From: a virus
Length of the DNA stretch: 30,294 nt
Strand: one strand, 5' to 3'
IMG/VR virus record: IMGVR_UViG_3300003410_000002
Span: 1-30,294 of that record
This document shows, one piece after another, positions 313 through 30,294 of the stretch. The translations under genes and the position numbers were made by a program. Within the stretch, counting starts at the first letter, position 1. Each line of letters starts with the position of its first letter. The notes under the pieces were generated by a model, which saw only the letters and a list, made by a program, of their open reading frames with translations, was not told the origin of the DNA and ran no database searches.

Positions 313-459
313 ATGTATCGAACGTATTACGAAATGATGACTAACGCGGAACTCTTAGAGGACGCAACTAACGAGAGCCTTTTAGATTACTATAGAAAGG
401 AATGTAAAGCGGTTTTATTATCTAGACTAGAATCTGAAAAAGAAATTATAGAGCTATGA
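313..459 (+). CDS. Small acidic helical protein, unknown function
   Basis: A 48-residue protein starting MYRTYYEMMTNAELLED and ending EIIEL. It looks fully helical, is rich in Glu and Leu, and has no recognised domain. Its start follows an A/T-rich leader (aaacaaataatt) typical of Bacteroidetes starts. Its TGA stop overlaps the ATG of the exonuclease gene (ATGA at 456-459), so it is probably the first gene of that operon and translationally coupled to it. Function unknown. Confidence 0.6.
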   Translation: MYRTYYEMMTNAELLEDATNESLLDYYRKECKAVLLSRLESEKEIIEL

Positions 460-1217
460 TAACCTTACTAAATAACGAGTCATACGGTAGAGACGAGATC
501 CTAGCTATGATGTACGACGACGAATTTTACTACGGCCACTTAGGTAAAAACGCTTTAAGTAGTAGCTCTTTAAAAACTTTACTTAAATCTCCTAAGACTT
601 ATAGGAACGTAATTAAATACGGTTCGGGGGATAGTCCCGCTCTTAGATTAGGTAAGTTACTTCATTGGATGGTATTAGAGCCGCATAAGATAGATAAGCT
701 TAATATAGTAGAAGCTAGTTCTAAGAATACTAAAATATATAAAGAGGCTTACGAAAAGGATAACGAAGTATTTCTAAGAAAAGAAATAAGCGATAGCGAA
801 AGATTATCGGACGCTTTACTAAGAAACGAAGAAGTATTAAGATTATTAAGTAAATCTGAGTTCGAAGTTCCCGAGATAGCGATGATAGACGGATTACCCT
901 TTAGAGCTAAAGCCGATATACTAAAGGACGATATGATAGTAGATATCAAGTCTACGGCCGATTTATCTACCTTTCGTTTTTCCGCTAATAAATACGGATA
1001 TGATTTACAAGCTTATCTTTATCTTAAGATATTCGGAAAGAAGAAATGTAAGTTTATAGTAGTAGATAAAGCTTCTACGGACGTAGGTATATTCGAGACT
1101 AGCGATGAGTTTATAAAATCGGGAAAGGCTAAATTTATACAAGCCGTATCGATATATAAATACTTCTTTAGAGAAGATAACGATATAGACCAATACGTTT
1201 TAAGAGGAATATTATGA
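456..1217 (+). CDS. RecE-like (exonuclease VIII) PD-(D/E)xK exonuclease
   Basis: A 253-residue protein of the phage exonuclease VIII / PDDEXK type, expected to resect double-stranded DNA for recombination or replication. Visible marks are the N-terminal S-S-S-S-L-K and A-L-R-L-G-K-L-L-H blocks (residues 36-70). The nuclease core follows: Asp154 in KADIL, Asp163-Ile-Lys165 in VDIKST, and Gln185 in DLQAYLY. This D...DxK...QxxxY order is usual for the family. Such exonucleases normally partner a single-strand annealing protein; none is evident next to it, though an SSB is coded at 26945. It overlaps both neighbours by 4 bases. The nuclease fold is clear; the exact role is inferred. Confidence 0.85.
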   Translation: MITLLNNESYGRDEILAMMYDDEFYYGHLGKNALSSSSLKTLLKSPKTYRNVIKYGSGDSPALRLGKLLHWMVLEPHKIDKLNIVEASSKNTKIYKEAYEKDNEVFLRKEISDSERLSDALLRNEEVLRLLSKSEFEVPEIAMIDGLPFRAKADILKDDMIVDIKSTADLSTFRFSANKYGYDLQAYLYLKIFGKKKCKFIVVDKASTDVGIFETSDEFIKSGKAKFIQAVSIYKYFFREDNDIDQYVLRGIL

Positions 1218-1867
1218 GTAAGTTTAGCTTCGATACCGTTAAGGATTTCGATAAGCATATAGATAAAAGTATACCTTCCTACTCTACTCTTTTAAATATA
1301 ATAGAAAATATATCTTCTTATTTTATAAGAGATTATTATAACGTATACGATCTAGGATGCTCTACGGGAACTCTTATTAAAAGACTTTACGCTAAAGATA
1401 AAACGAAGGCTAATTTTATAGGCTACGATATATCTAATAATCTTTTACCCGAGATAGAGGACGATAGAATATACTTTTATAATAGAGATATTACTAAGGA
1501 CGTTAATCTAAATAGAGCTTCTTTAATATTTTCTATATTTACTTTACAGTTTATAGATTATTATAAAAGAGAGAGAATACTTAAAAACGTATACGACTCT
1601 TTAATTAAAGGAGGAGCTTTTATAGTTACGGAAAAGATATTTTTAGAGGACGCGAGACTACAGGATATTTTTACTTTTTCTTTATACGATTATAAGATAA
1701 ATTCTTTTACGGCTTTAGAGATATTAGATAAGCAGAGAGACTTACGGAAGATTATGTTTCCTATTAGCGAGAAAGAAAACTTAGAATTATTTAGAAAAGT
1801 AGGATTTAAAACTATAGAACCTTTTTTTCAATCTCTAAATTTTAAAGGATGGATTCTTTTAAAGTAG
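1214..1867 (+). CDS. cmoA: CmoA-like carboxy-S-adenosyl-L-methionine (Cx-SAM) synthase
   Basis: A 217-residue class I SAM-fold protein that follows E. coli CmoA along nearly its whole length. Shared blocks are the N-terminal S-I-P-S-Y (CmoA SVPGY), VYDLGCS at residues 44-50, FTLQF at 109-113, GGA...TEK at 133-141, the LEI helix near 168-170, and a final FFQSLNF (CmoA WFQCFNF). CmoA converts SAM and prephenate to Cx-SAM; its only established use is by CmoB in tRNA wobble-uridine modification. No CmoB is present. Instead the gene overlaps the DNA cytosine transferase by 19 bases, so Cx-SAM supply to that enzyme is the likely role. One oddity: the Cx-SAM-binding Arg199 of E. coli CmoA aligns with Gln174, with Arg175 next to it. 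A plain methyltransferase remains the alternative. Confidence 0.85.
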   Translation: MSKFSFDTVKDFDKHIDKSIPSYSTLLNIIENISSYFIRDYYNVYDLGCSTGTLIKRLYAKDKTKANFIGYDISNNLLPEIEDDRIYFYNRDITKDVNLNRASLIFSIFTLQFIDYYKRERILKNVYDSLIKGGAFIVTEKIFLEDARLQDIFTFSLYDYKINSFTALEILDKQRDLRKIMFPISEKENLELFRKVGFKTIEPFFQSLNFKGWILLK

Positions 1868-2949
1868 AATATAAGCCTTTACTACTAGAGGAGGTAATAG
1901 CCGAATCTAATAAAAAACTATTTAACGTAGTATCTACTTTCGCGGGAGGAGGAGGTTCTTCTTTAGGCTATAGATTAGCGGGAGGTAATATATTAGCTAT
2001 TAACGAGTTCGTAGAAAGTGCTAGAGATACCTATAGATCTAACTGGCGAGAGACTAAGATATATCCTAGCGATATAAGAGAACTAAAAGGAAGTACTATC
2101 TTAAACGATCTAAACTTAAAAGAAGGAGAGTTAGATATATTAGATGGCTCCCCGCCTTGCGCCTCCTTTTCCCTTTCGGGTAATAGAGAAAAAGATTGGG
2201 GTAAAGAAAAGAAGTATAGCGATAAGACGCAAACGACCGACGATTTATTCTTCGAATACGCTAGACTAATAGACGAAATAAAACCTAAGACTTTTATAGC
2301 GGAAAACGTTAAAGGGCTACTTATAGGAAGTGCTAAGAATTTTTTCGGGAGTTCGCAGTTAGGCTTATTCGGAGGACATAGCGATACGATATACCATACC
2401 CTTACTAACCTAGGTTATAAAGTATATTATAAAGTTTTAAACGCTAAGAATTACGGAGTACCTCAGTCTAGGGAAAGATTAATTATAGTAGGAGTAAGAA
2501 ACGATATAGATATACCTTTTAAGTATCCTAAGGCTAACGATTATATATTTTCTTTACGAGAAGCTTTCGAGGGTTTAGAACATAGTAAAGAGGAATTAGA
2601 GGAGGTTAATATAGATAGGTTCGCTATATATAAAGAGGCTATTAAATTAGAAGAGGGGGGTCAGAGCGAAAAGTATTTTAACCTAATAAAGTCTAATAGT
2701 AAAAAGCCTTCGGGAACGCTAACGCAGACGGCGGGATCGGTAGGAGCAGCTTCGATAATACATTGGGATAATAGAAAGTTTACCGTAAAAGAAGCTAAAA
2801 GGATTATGTCTTTTCCCGACGATTATATCTTAAAGGGAACTTATAGAGAAAAAGTAGAAAGACTAGGGAGAGCCGTACCTCCTTTATTAATGAGCGCGGT
2901 AGCGAAACAAGTATATAATTTAATTTTAAAGAAATGGGAAAACAATTAA
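1849..2949 (+). CDS. C5-cytosine DNA transferase with Arg in motif X; candidate DNA carboxymethyltransferase
   Basis: A 366-residue C5-cytosine DNA transferase with motifs in order: I, FAGGGGSSLG (31-40); IV, GSPPCASFS with catalytic Cys104; VI, ENV (152-154); VIII, QSRER (206-210); IX, near FTVKEAKRIMSFPDDY (311-326). Between VIII and IX is a short target-recognition region of about 100 residues. Motif X normally reads G-N-[SA]-V; here it is L-G340-R341-A-V-P-P. From recall, the engineered Asn374-to-Lys form of M.MpeI, which I place at this position, accepts Cx-SAM and makes 5-carboxymethylcytosine. A natural Arg here, with a CmoA homologue directly upstream, strongly suggests transfer of a carboxymethyl group. 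The target site is unknown. Ordinary methylation is the alternative. The ATG lies inside the upstream gene. Confidence 0.9.
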   Translation: MDSFKVEYKPLLLEEVIAESNKKLFNVVSTFAGGGGSSLGYRLAGGNILAINEFVESARDTYRSNWRETKIYPSDIRELKGSTILNDLNLKEGELDILDGSPPCASFSLSGNREKDWGKEKKYSDKTQTTDDLFFEYARLIDEIKPKTFIAENVKGLLIGSAKNFFGSSQLGLFGGHSDTIYHTLTNLGYKVYYKVLNAKNYGVPQSRERLIIVGVRNDIDIPFKYPKANDYIFSLREAFEGLEHSKEELEEVNIDRFAIYKEAIKLEEGGQSEKYFNLIKSNSKKPSGTLTQTAGSVGAASIIHWDNRKFTVKEAKRIMSFPDDYILKGTYREKVERLGRAVPPLLMSAVAKQVYNLILKKWENN

Positions 2950-3470
2950 ATATCTACGGAAACGTAGAAGAAGGAAGTCTCTTAAGAGATAATATAGATA
3001 AAATAATATCTATACTAGAAAAGTATAAAATAGATAGCGTAGATAAACTAGAGAATATATTTAAAGGTCAAGAGGGAGAGAGAACCGTTAAAAAATATCT
3101 TAATAACGAGATAGGAAACTACGGAATGCAGATAGACGACTTTAGAATAAATAGAGAGGGAGGGTATCAGTTAAGCGAAATTAAAAGTCAATATAAGGTA
3201 AATAAAGGAGATTATTACTCCCCTATAGAGGGTCATGGGTTACACCCTGCGCAAGTAGAGGCTAGGGTAAGACTTTCCGAAAAGTACGGCTGGACCCCTA
3301 TGTTATATATAAACTGTCTAACCGATAAAGTTATATATTACGGAGATCTTAGAGAATTACTAAAAACGGAGACGCATACTTTTTCTAAGGGAGACTTTAG
3401 AAAAGAAAGAATACTTTTTAATATAAAATACTTTAATAAATCAGTACTTGGATCGGAATATTATAAATGA
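2934..3470 (+). CDS. PD-(D/E)xK nuclease, VRR-NUC / resolvase-like
   Basis: A 178-residue protein starting at ATG 2934, overlapping the DNA transferase gene by 16 bases. It has a restricted nuclease-like core: acidic residues near 47-50 (QEGER), Asp68-Asp69, then Glu82-Ile-Lys84 in YQLSEIKSQ, and a helix with Gln107 in HPAQVEARVRLSEKYGW followed by a strand TPMLYI. This E-x-K...P-x-Q layout resembles VRR-NUC and Holliday-junction-resolvase-like members of the superfamily. Tight coupling to the modification genes suggests it may act on unmodified host DNA or on replication intermediates, but this is inference. It could also be a structure-specific nuclease unrelated to modification. Confidence 0.6.
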   Translation: MGKQLNIYGNVEEGSLLRDNIDKIISILEKYKIDSVDKLENIFKGQEGERTVKKYLNNEIGNYGMQIDDFRINREGGYQLSEIKSQYKVNKGDYYSPIEGHGLHPAQVEARVRLSEKYGWTPMLYINCLTDKVIYYGDLRELLKTETHTFSKGDFRKERILFNIKYFNKSVLGSEYYK

Positions 3471-3684
3471 ATTTTATTTACTAGCTTTACAGGATCTTTC
3501 GGAGGGAGCTTCTATAGAAGAGTTAGAAAAAACTATAAACTACTACGAGGCTTTAGAAGATTACGAGGCCTGCGAAGGTATTCTTAGAGCTATAAAAGAA
3601 GTAAAAAAAAGTACTATTAACGCTATAAAAGATAAAATTAATGAAATTAGAAGAGATAATAAAGATAGTAGAAGAAGAGACTAA
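3448..3684 (+). CDS. Small charged helical protein, unknown function
   Basis: A 78-residue protein with an acidic first half (ASIEELEKTINYYEALEDYEACEGIL) and a very basic tail (RRDNKDSRRRD). No in-frame ATG precedes the conserved-looking part, so the start given is TTG 3448, 23 bases inside the previous gene; another non-ATG start cannot be excluded. It overlaps the next gene by 44 bases. The long overlaps at both ends and the helical sequence suggest a real, translationally coupled gene. No domain recognised and no function offered. Confidence 0.5.
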   Translation: MDRNIINEFYLLALQDLSEGASIEELEKTINYYEALEDYEACEGILRAIKEVKKSTINAIKDKINEIRRDNKDSRRRD

Positions 3685-4054
3685 ATATAATTTAGTAAAT
3701 AGAAATAGAAAAAGAGAGATAGTTTACTCTAGAGCCATATACTATAAACTAGCTAGAGTACATACTAGGGAATCCTTAAACTCTATAGCTAAGAAAGTAA
3801 AAAGAGACCACGCTACGGCTTTACACGGTATAAAAGTATTCGACGAACAGATAAGCGTTTATAAAGACGCTATAGAATATCTTAAAGTATACGATAAACT
3901 AGATAATATTATTAAAAGATCTACGAATACTAGAGAGAGAGATATAAACCCTGGGCCGTATTATCGTAATAAATTCGCGAACGCTTTACTAGAACTAAGA
4001 GAAGAAAGAAAAGCTAATAGGTTATTAAAAGAACAATTAAGAATTAACAGTTAA
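3641..4054 (+). CDS. DnaA domain IV-like DNA-binding protein
   Basis: A 137-residue protein whose residues 22-70 match the DNA-binding domain IV of bacterial DnaA. It has the pattern R-K-R-E-I-V-Y-S-R-A-I-Y-Y-K, then S-L-N-S-I-A-K-K-V-K, then the signature RDHATALH at 55-62, which in DnaA contacts the DnaA box. The AAA+ domain of DnaA is missing. The remainder is a charged, helical tail ending ELREERKANRLLKEQL, possibly a coiled coil. Proteins of this shape occur in Bacteroidetes phages near terminase genes. It may bind the phage origin or a control site, or titrate host DnaA boxes. DNA binding is well supported; the biological role is inferred. Confidence 0.75.
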   Translation: MKLEEIIKIVEEETKYNLVNRNRKREIVYSRAIYYKLARVHTRESLNSIAKKVKRDHATALHGIKVFDEQISVYKDAIEYLKVYDKLDNIIKRSTNTRERDINPGPYYRNKFANALLELREERKANRLLKEQLRINS

Positions 4055-4371: not shown

Positions 4372-5541
4372 ATGCGGATAAAGAAAACCCCAGCTTTTTA
4401 TAAATTAAAAGAACTAACCGAAAGAACTCGAGTAGTTAAAGGTGGTACCTCTGCGGGAAAAACTATCTGTATTCTAGCTATACTAATTAACGACGCGATT
4501 ACTAACTCGGGAAAAGAAATAAGCGTAGTAGCGGAGTCTATACCAGCCGTAAGACGTGGTGCCTTAAAAGACTTCTTAAATATACTTAAAGGCCTTAATA
4601 GATATAAGGAAAACCAGTTTAATCGTAGTACCCTTAAATATACTTTTACTAATGGAAGCTATATCGAATTTTTTAGTACCGATCAGCCCGATAAATTGCG
4701 AGGTTCTCGAAGAACTGATCTCTTTATTAATGAGTGCAATAATATTTCTTTTTCTAGTTACGGTGAATTATCTATACGAACGTCTGGGACTATCTGGCTA
4801 GATTATAACCCTTCCCATATATTCTGGGTAGATAAAGAAATAATAGGAGAGCCAGACGTAGATTATATAACCCTTACTTATAAAGATAACGACGCTTTAG
4901 CTCCTTCTATAGTAAAAGAAATAGAAAAGGCTAGAGAAAAGTCTAAGACTTCTACTTACTGGGCTAACTGGTGGCGAGTCTATGGTCTCGGAGAGCAGGG
5001 AACTCTTTCGGGTGCGTGTATTCCCGATTGGAAAGAAATAGATAGTATTCCCGAAGAAGCTAGACTTATAGGATATGGCATGGACTTCGGCTATTCGGTA
5101 GATCCGAGTACATTAATCGCTTTATATAAATGGAACGAAGCCTATATATTCGATGAGGTTCTCTATAAGAAAGGAATGCTAAATAGAGATATAAGTAGAT
5201 TCCTAAAGGATAATAATATTAAAGAAAATATTACGGCTGATTCCGCAGAGCCTAAGAGTATCGCAGAATTGGTAAGTTACGGCCATAACGTCTTTCCTGT
5301 TTCTAAAGGAAGAGATAGCGTAGTATATGGTATAAACCTAATAAACCAAAACGAGATATATATAACTTCTAGAAGTAAGAACTTAAAGCGAGAGTTAGAA
5401 GGCTACGTTTGGGCTAAAGATAAAGACGGTAATACGTTACAGAAGCCTAGCGGAGCGCATCCTGACTGTATAGATGCGGCTAGATATATTCTAACCGATA
5501 CTCTAGAGAACCCGAATAAGGGTGAATATTTTATTTACTAA
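4372..5541 (+). CDS. terL: Terminase large subunit
   Basis: A 389-residue DNA-packaging motor of usual length. The ATPase half has Walker A GGTSAGKT (24-31), Walker B DLFINE (116-121) and the coupling segment IWLDYNP (141-147). The C-terminal RNase H-like nuclease has Asp238 in GYGMDFGYSVD, Asp290 in ITADSAEPKSI, and Asp365/Asp368 in HPDCIDAARY. Together these are the full set expected for an active enzyme that cuts and translocates DNA into the prohead. It follows the small terminase gene directly and is followed by a promoter-like region instead of by portal, which is coded far away at 19199. Confidence 0.95.
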   Translation: MRIKKTPAFYKLKELTERTRVVKGGTSAGKTICILAILINDAITNSGKEISVVAESIPAVRRGALKDFLNILKGLNRYKENQFNRSTLKYTFTNGSYIEFFSTDQPDKLRGSRRTDLFINECNNISFSSYGELSIRTSGTIWLDYNPSHIFWVDKEIIGEPDVDYITLTYKDNDALAPSIVKEIEKAREKSKTSTYWANWWRVYGLGEQGTLSGACIPDWKEIDSIPEEARLIGYGMDFGYSVDPSTLIALYKWNEAYIFDEVLYKKGMLNRDISRFLKDNNIKENITADSAEPKSIAELVSYGHNVFPVSKGRDSVVYGINLINQNEIYITSRSKNLKRELEGYVWAKDKDGNTLQKPSGAHPDCIDAARYILTDTLENPNKGEYFIY

Positions 5542-30153: not shown

Positions 30154-30294
30154 AGACTCCGATAGAAGAATTACTCGAATTAGAATCTAACTTAACTAAT
30201 ATGTTCGACTCAGACGTAAGAGTAGCTTTAGCTATACTAGAATATATTAGAACTAATAAGAAAGATATTCTTAAGAAAGAGAAAGAACTAAATC
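30150..30294 (+). CDS. 5' part of the junction-crossing small gene
   Basis: Starts at ATG 30150 (ATGA overlap with the MazG-like gene) and runs off the window end; its last codons are those at 3-98, giving 55 residues in total. It is annotated there in more detail. The open frame across the join is part of the evidence that the contig is circular. Confidence 0.7.
   Translation, partial: MKTPIEELLELESNLTNMFDSDVRVALAILEYIRTNKKDILKKEKELN
30220..30294. repeat. 75-bp terminal direct repeat, right copy
   Basis: Identical to bases 1-75; see the left copy. One copy should be removed when the genome is drawn as a circle. Confidence 0.95.

Follow-up and report, generated by a model that had tools for sequence, protein, structure and literature searches.

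The gene at positions 1849–2949 of the viral DNA analysed here (the window, a stretch of 30,294 nucleotides corresponding to the IMG/VR record IMGVR_UViG_3300003410_000002; all window features below lie on the plus strand) very probably encodes a CmoX-type DNA cytosine C5-carboxymethyltransferase, the donor of which would be made by the product of the upstream CmoA-like gene (1214–1867). We give this reading a probability of about 0.9, based on the anatomy of the protein, on the match between its mapped carboxy-SAM (Cx-SAM) site residues and those of the characterized enzyme SpCmoX, and on the co-occurrence of an arginine in motif X with CmoA in the sampled relatives. In the proposed mechanism, CmoA would use SAM and prephenate to produce Cx-SAM. 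CmoX would then flip out a cytosine, Cys104 would attack its C6, and the carboxymethyl group would pass from Cx-SAM to the cytosine C5, giving 5-carboxymethylcytosine (5cxmC). Arg341 in motif X would hold the donor carboxylate, replacing the asparagine of the SAM-using enzymes. We infer the activity and the donor, as well as the purpose, which would be to shield the phage DNA from host nucleases.

A natural DNA carboxymethyltransferase, SpCmoX from the Synechococcus phage S-B43, was published in December 2025 (PMC12783734) and its structure in complex with Cx-SAM is available as 8YF3 (Nat Commun 2025, PMC12783734). According to that report, the phage CmoA makes Cx-SAM and CmoX puts the carboxymethyl group on the cytosine C5 in a GC motif, while a third enzyme of the system, CmoY, ligates glycine; 5gcxmC, and not 5cxmC, was found in the native S-B43 DNA. 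In the crystal structure, the SpCmoX Arg350, which occupies the place of HhaI Asn304, contacts the carboxymethyl group; the wild type uses Cx-SAM only and the R350N mutant neither cofactor. The same source describes a search for SPPC together with R350 that yielded 5,615 CmoX candidates, the contigs of which hold 4,257 CmoA and 2,251 ligases. Our literature search listed no other report of a natural DNA carboxymethyltransferase. The enzyme, its motif-X arginine and the use of this arginine as a search marker are already in print, and the window provides a further member. Relative to the parts of PMC12783734 that were available, this analysis adds a phylogeny on which the residue and CmoA co-vary, the description of the cassette slot and a probable instance of CmoA-CmoX lacking CmoY. 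The window enzyme and SpCmoX are around 40% identical and have in common the family, the SPPC motif, the motif-X arginine, the mapped residues of the Cx-SAM pocket and a CmoA gene nearby. Yet S-B43, the target of which is GC, has a genome of 214 kb against 30 kb for the window phage and, unlike in S-B43, no CmoY was found beside the window genes, which are accompanied by an extra overlapping gene coding for a PD-(D/E)XK-like protein. With the window, the system extends to a compact phage of 30 kb, distant from the cyanophage in which it was discovered.

The best PDB match of the predicted CmoX (366 aa, ATG start) is 8YF3 (E = 7e-72, residues 10–362 aligned), to be compared with 9e-23 for the second best, HaeIII. 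The catalytic SPPC motif is found at 2149–2160 (Ser101–Cys104), where Cys104 aligns with SpCmoX Cys98. In a large alignment, Phe25, Glu47, Phe48 and Asp69 of SpCmoX correspond to Phe31, Glu53, Phe54 and Asp75 of the window protein, and the six mapped SpCmoX residues (F25, E47, F48, D69, C98, R350) are all identical in the latter. An earlier note on this DNA had read residues 340–345, encoded at 2866–2883, as G-R-A-V-P-P, which the 1849–2949 open reading frame confirms. Arg341 corresponds to SpCmoX Arg350 and to HhaI Asn304: phmmer places it opposite the asparagine of 'FGNSV' in the HhaI chain (10mh), counting out to Asn304, and the HaeIII alignments place it opposite the asparagine of GNAV. 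The motif-X asparagine of ordinary SAM-dependent C5-methyltransferases is consequently replaced by Arg341 in the window enzyme; M.HhaI, which has the same family and motifs but Asn304 at this place, uses SAM.

The note had also equated this position with M.MpeI Asn374. The SpCmoX arginine is reported to mirror the M.MpeI substitution N374K, a positive residue at the same place that lets a C5-methyltransferase accept Cx-SAM (PMC12783734), but the M.MpeI (4dkj) match covers only residues 94–220 of the window protein and Asn374 falls outside the matched stretch, so that the equivalence rests on the published comparison. Moreover, N374K is an engineered lysine in a CG-specific enzyme rather than a natural gene. 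The idea that the arginine pairs with the Cx-SAM carboxylate and thereby marks carboxymethyltransferases is supported by the SpCmoX structure and assays, as reported in PMC12783734.

The gene at 1214–1867 codes for a predicted Cx-SAM synthase of 217 aa and overlaps the start of the CmoX gene by 19 bases. Its best PDB matches are CmoA/YecO structures (4gek/4iwn/1im8, E from 3e-23 to 9e-21) and the SpCmoA query finds it at 2.6e-37. The best NCBIfam model is TIGR00740, with 120.2 bits, under the equivalog cut-off of 193.3. The E. coli CmoA, to which the window protein is related, serves tRNA modification with CmoB and its Arg199 binds the Cx-SAM carboxylate (PMC3663124). Unlike E. coli CmoA, the aligned phage proteins lack this residue: the window protein has a glutamine in that column, with an arginine one place on, and SpCmoA likewise has no arginine there. 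Since SpCmoA is a proven synthase, the missing Arg199 is no argument against the window CmoA, and Arg199 does not define the phage CmoA.

The association between the motif-X residue and CmoA was studied in several sets of sequences. Of the 456 confirmed IMG/VR stretches related to the window protein, the best 80 were kept. With the two copies of the window itself set aside for the residue count, an arginine is found at the motif-X place in 78 of 80, the others being one leucine (L080) and one sequence ending before the motif; this conservation indicates that the arginine is not there by chance. CmoA is present in 74 of these 80 loci and absent from L021, L047, L048, L049, L067 and L080, although a search of the whole L021 record found it at the other end. 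For the two control sets, enzymes from a Flavobacterium phage and an Aphanizomenon phage served as queries, giving the best 80 of 362 relatives and all 19 relatives, respectively. In the former, all 80 loci have a methionine (G-M-S-V-P-P) and none has CmoA, one of them carrying a second enzyme with asparagine. The latter comprises 15 enzymes with asparagine and no CmoA, three with arginine, two of which have CmoA, and one partial sequence (L190). Twelve regions of named phages, picked from 60 listed among 807 records, include six arginine, four methionine, one leucine and one asparagine enzymes. CmoA accompanies all six arginine enzymes (S-B43, S-CRM01, Mcat8, TurkishDelight, PaBG and Yoloswag) and was found in none of the six whole records of the others. 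The Moraxella phage Mcat8 (KR093632) has the best match to the window CmoX among the named phages listed (49.6% identity), with the arginine and an adjacent CmoA; there, CmoA comes after CmoX, both genes are annotated as hypothetical and the record has no SpCmoY match. Finally, the 24 loci from GTDB contigs consist of 14 with arginine, all 14 with CmoA, seven with methionine and one with asparagine, none of them with CmoA, and two broken genes.

Once the sequences were clustered at 90% identity, 63 of the 68 arginine clusters had CmoA in the fetched locus (five did not) versus one of the 86 non-arginine clusters (85 did not), a strongly favorable outcome for the link with a CmoA-like neighbor that the note had suggested tabulating (Fisher p = 5e-36, a statistic that ignores relatedness, with a CmoA profile built from the genes beside CmoX, which could favor finding CmoA there). 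The single non-arginine cluster with CmoA is L241, a broken and misaligned gene. Two of the five arginine clusters without CmoA in the locus, L021 and L093, have it elsewhere in the record, according to whole-record checks made with a single query, either SpCmoA or the window CmoA. The other three, which count against the association, are L067, L191 and L047 (L048 and L049 being nearly identical to the latter), from records of 16.7, 27 and 9.8 kb, respectively, that are probably fragments. The tally leaves out the window duplicate L001, L094, L194–L217, L289, L319–L324 and the rows gapped at the motif. The motif letters displayed for L190 and L241 come from partial or broken genes and are misaligned, the genes of L238 and L239 (methionine) are split over two frames, and the extra asparagine C5 enzymes in L107, L235 (two) and L245 were counted as non-arginine.

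These distributions bear on a more conventional interpretation, in which the window protein would be an ordinary SAM-dependent C5-methyltransferase whose motif-X arginine results from neutral drift, next to an unrelated small-molecule methyltransferase. PF00145 and TIGR00675 match it as they match any C5-methyltransferase, and methionine and leucine also occur at this place. Mammalian DNMT3 enzymes even have an arginine in motif X and yet use SAM. Nevertheless, the conservation of the arginine in 78 of the 80 relatives and its co-occurrence with CmoA across the sampled sequences speak against simple drift, and the nearest solved relative, SpCmoX, uses Cx-SAM only in the published assays (PMC12783734), all of which makes this interpretation very improbable. 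Given the DNMT3 precedent, the arginine should not be used alone as a marker; a safer one combines it with SPPC and a CmoA in the genome. The proposal that this residue could serve as a searchable marker for a new enzyme family stopped being new in December 2025, when the search with R350 and SPPC was published (PMC12783734). In contrast, the near-invariance ascribed to the motif-X asparagine does not hold for phage enzymes, which include a large methionine class and some leucines. That methionine class (G-M-S-V-P-P; L088 2926–3990, L095–L174 and L232–L236) has CmoA in no locus, and its cofactor is presumably SAM.

In the CmoX of the Erwinia phage Yoloswag (L093, 2998–5106), the SPPC cysteine is directly followed by a long insertion resembling an intein, and the CmoA and CmoY-like genes lie around 13 kb from CmoX. 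Five contigs of the Verrucomicrobia MAG FR_27 carry CmoX genes (L229, L230, L231, L240 and L241), two of them in broken frames.

The phylogeny of the C5 enzymes was reconstructed with FastTree from 133 sequences collapsed at 80% identity, after removing the motif-X column, and was rooted at midpoint; it leaves out L240 and L241 (broken frames), L190, L127, L194, L198, the loci from L319 on, the rows gapped at the motif and those shorter than around 280 letters. The leucine enzyme of the Methylophilales phage Melnitz-3 (L085; MZ577098) groups with the CmoX of S-CRM01 and S-B43 (support = 0.90), and the leucine enzyme of L080 with four arginine enzymes (0.89). The asparagine enzyme of L192 branches inside an arginine group, with enclosing supports of 0.53–0.87, the closest being the weakest. 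No CmoA was found in any of these three records (141, 20.5 and 71.8 kb, respectively), and neither was a ligase of the TurkishDelight type. Eleven asparagine enzymes form a group within the span of the arginine enzymes, beside two arginine sequences (0.77), and 54 methionine enzymes form a group of their own (0.78). Since enzymes with leucine or asparagine that lack CmoA are found among the arginine enzymes, the motif-X residue and the donor gene seem to have changed in concert on more than one occasion, in a direction that depends on the root. This supports the view that a single motif-X residue marks the carboxy-SAM-using enzymes and indicates that this residue and the donor-making gene were gained or lost together. 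The natural leucine and asparagine variants without CmoA are ready comparisons for the switching of cofactor choice.

The window comes from a tailed phage, as it carries terminase, protease, portal, tail fiber and primase/helicase families. A perfect direct terminal repeat of 75 bp (1–75 and 30220–30294) suggests that the genome is complete, at about 30.2 kb. The CmoA-CmoX pair lies in a slot bordered on the left by a DUF3799/exonuclease VIII-like protein (456–1217) and on the right by a DnaA C-terminal-like HTH protein (3641–4054, PF08299), after which come the terminase genes. The large terminase (4372–5541, PF17288/PF04466) served as query for relatives both carrying and lacking the cassette, and the best 80 of at least 598 were compared for the content of the interval from the DUF3799-type gene to the DnaA-C-type gene or the terminase. 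The slot of the window clade, like that of its sister clade, contains CmoA, CmoX and the nuclease-like gene discussed below. In L201, L202, L205, L206 and L211–L213, it contains a protein of around 300 aa, which is PF01555 (N4/N6 DNA methylase) in the two cases tested (L202 and L205), together with the same nuclease-like gene. Many other relatives have other genes there, and in L249, L269, L271, L275, L284, L291, L306, L307 and L314 the slot is nearly empty (177–198 bp). Because the slot holds different genes or almost nothing in the relatives, the CmoA-CmoX pair counts among several exchangeable inserts that occupy this fixed position (456–4054). The bacterial chromosomal CmoX loci L219, L221 and L237 look like prophages, as they have a terminase gene close by.

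The gene that follows CmoX (2934–3470, 178 aa) overlaps its end by 16 bases in the window and also follows CmoX in the sister clade. Its product had no match in Pfam, PHROG or NCBIfam at E 0.001, but D69, E82 and K84 are invariant in 14 aligned relatives, which also keep H101-G-L and Q107. An AlphaFold2 model made from these 14 sequences (pLDDT 75.6) has an order of helices and strands that fits the PD-(D/E)XK fold, and Foldseek matches it best, though weakly, to archaeal Hjc resolvases (best E = 6e-3, TM normalized by the query of about 0.3–0.4); an earlier model from seven sequences, of poor quality (pLDDT 59), led to the same resolvases. On the strength of the model and the conserved residues, this protein is a probable nuclease with a PD-(D/E)XK-like fold. 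It also occurs in relatives whose locus has no CmoX, sometimes beside an N4/N6-type methyltransferase. One possibility is that it forms with CmoX a pair similar to a restriction-modification system, in which the nuclease would cut unmodified host or competitor DNA. The overlap of the genes, the conserved D-ExK residues on a nuclease-like fold and the presence of the same protein beside N4/N6-type methyltransferases in some relatives speak for this pairing. Nevertheless, the fold search points, weakly, to Holliday-junction resolvases, and the protein also occurs without CmoX, which leaves such a pair rather unlikely. Palindrome avoidance was considered as a readout of the nuclease target and discarded, as the pattern is not consistent: CCGG is avoided in the window clade but GGCC and CATG in the sister clade.

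The SpCmoY, PaBG and TurkishDelight ligase queries had no match among the window open reading frames of at least 50 aa. With SpCmoY, the search was extended to the whole window record and to three sister-clade records of 30–35 kb (those of L008, L010 and L016), again with no match. ParB had no match in the window either. Many of the window open reading frames have no family match, which leaves room for an unrecognized ligase. Since no CmoY-type ligase was found in an apparently complete genome, we predict that the end product is unadorned 5cxmC or that a further step is carried out by an unrecognized or host enzyme. In a specific version of the second option, 5cxmC would only be an intermediate, and the 2934–3470 product or another unrecognized phage or host enzyme would add an amine to its carboxyl, as the S-B43 CmoY does. 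The presence of 5gcxmC instead of 5cxmC in native S-B43 DNA (PMC12783734) and the position of the overlapping gene after CmoX in both clades are congruent with such a step. Yet, apart from the failed ligase searches, the 2934–3470 product resembles a nuclease and occurs in loci without CmoX, some with an N4/N6-type methyltransferase, and the published survey counted fewer ligases (2,251) than CmoX candidates (5,615) (PMC12783734); amine addition is thus possible but on the unlikely side. The 2934–3470 product itself was rejected as a ligase, given its nuclease-like model and the lack of any sequence match. As a CmoA-CmoX unit in which no ligase was found, the window offers a system for asking whether bare 5cxmC protects DNA.

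The composition of the window is also peculiar. Relative to expectation, CA/TG stands at 0.36, CG at 1.47 and TA at 1.32, and CCGG occurs once versus 69 expected. The avoidance of CA/TG is strongest at codon boundaries: in 25 genes, C|A is seen there 30 times versus 441 expected from synonymous shuffles, and T|G 233 times versus 876. The sister clade (L008–L016) lacks GGCC and CATG rather than CCGG. Among the terminase matches, the loci with CmoX and CmoA have CA/TG values of 0.26–0.63 (several rows being overlapping pieces of one contig), whereas the others range from 0.88 to 1.42, except for eight without a CmoX match in their records of 4–23 kb (L242, L243, L205, L206 and L210–L213, 0.48–0.65). 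In the loci of at least 5 kb from the control sets, the lowest values are 0.78 (methionine) and 0.90 (asparagine). Among distant CmoX contigs, L065 and L075 (0.23–0.25) and L041 (0.47) are low but most others are not; the avoidance is common to the window clade, the sister clade and the distant L065/L075. Deamination was rejected as the whole cause of this loss because NNT|G is also purged at codon boundaries, where a C-to-T change in the complementary strand would affect the first base of the codon, which is fixed, and not the T. The target specificity of CmoX is an unsupported cause as well: L017, whose CmoX is 61% identical and similar by eye at the end of the target-recognition region, has 0.88, L065 has 0.23 with a different region, and the relatives without CmoX have 0.48–0.65. 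The link between CA/TG and CmoX is therefore suggestive but not specific. In one scenario, the end product of this lineage would be free 5cxmC, the cassette would be swapped as a block for other DNA-modification cassettes and the CA/TG avoidance would reflect selection tied to the cytosines on which the cassette, or a nuclease that it guards against, can act; we regard this as a decidedly doubtful conjecture. As a separate observation, two terminase relatives (84–85%), L244 (1–14644) and L245 (1–14539), are almost devoid of CpG, with rho values of 0.00 and 0.02.
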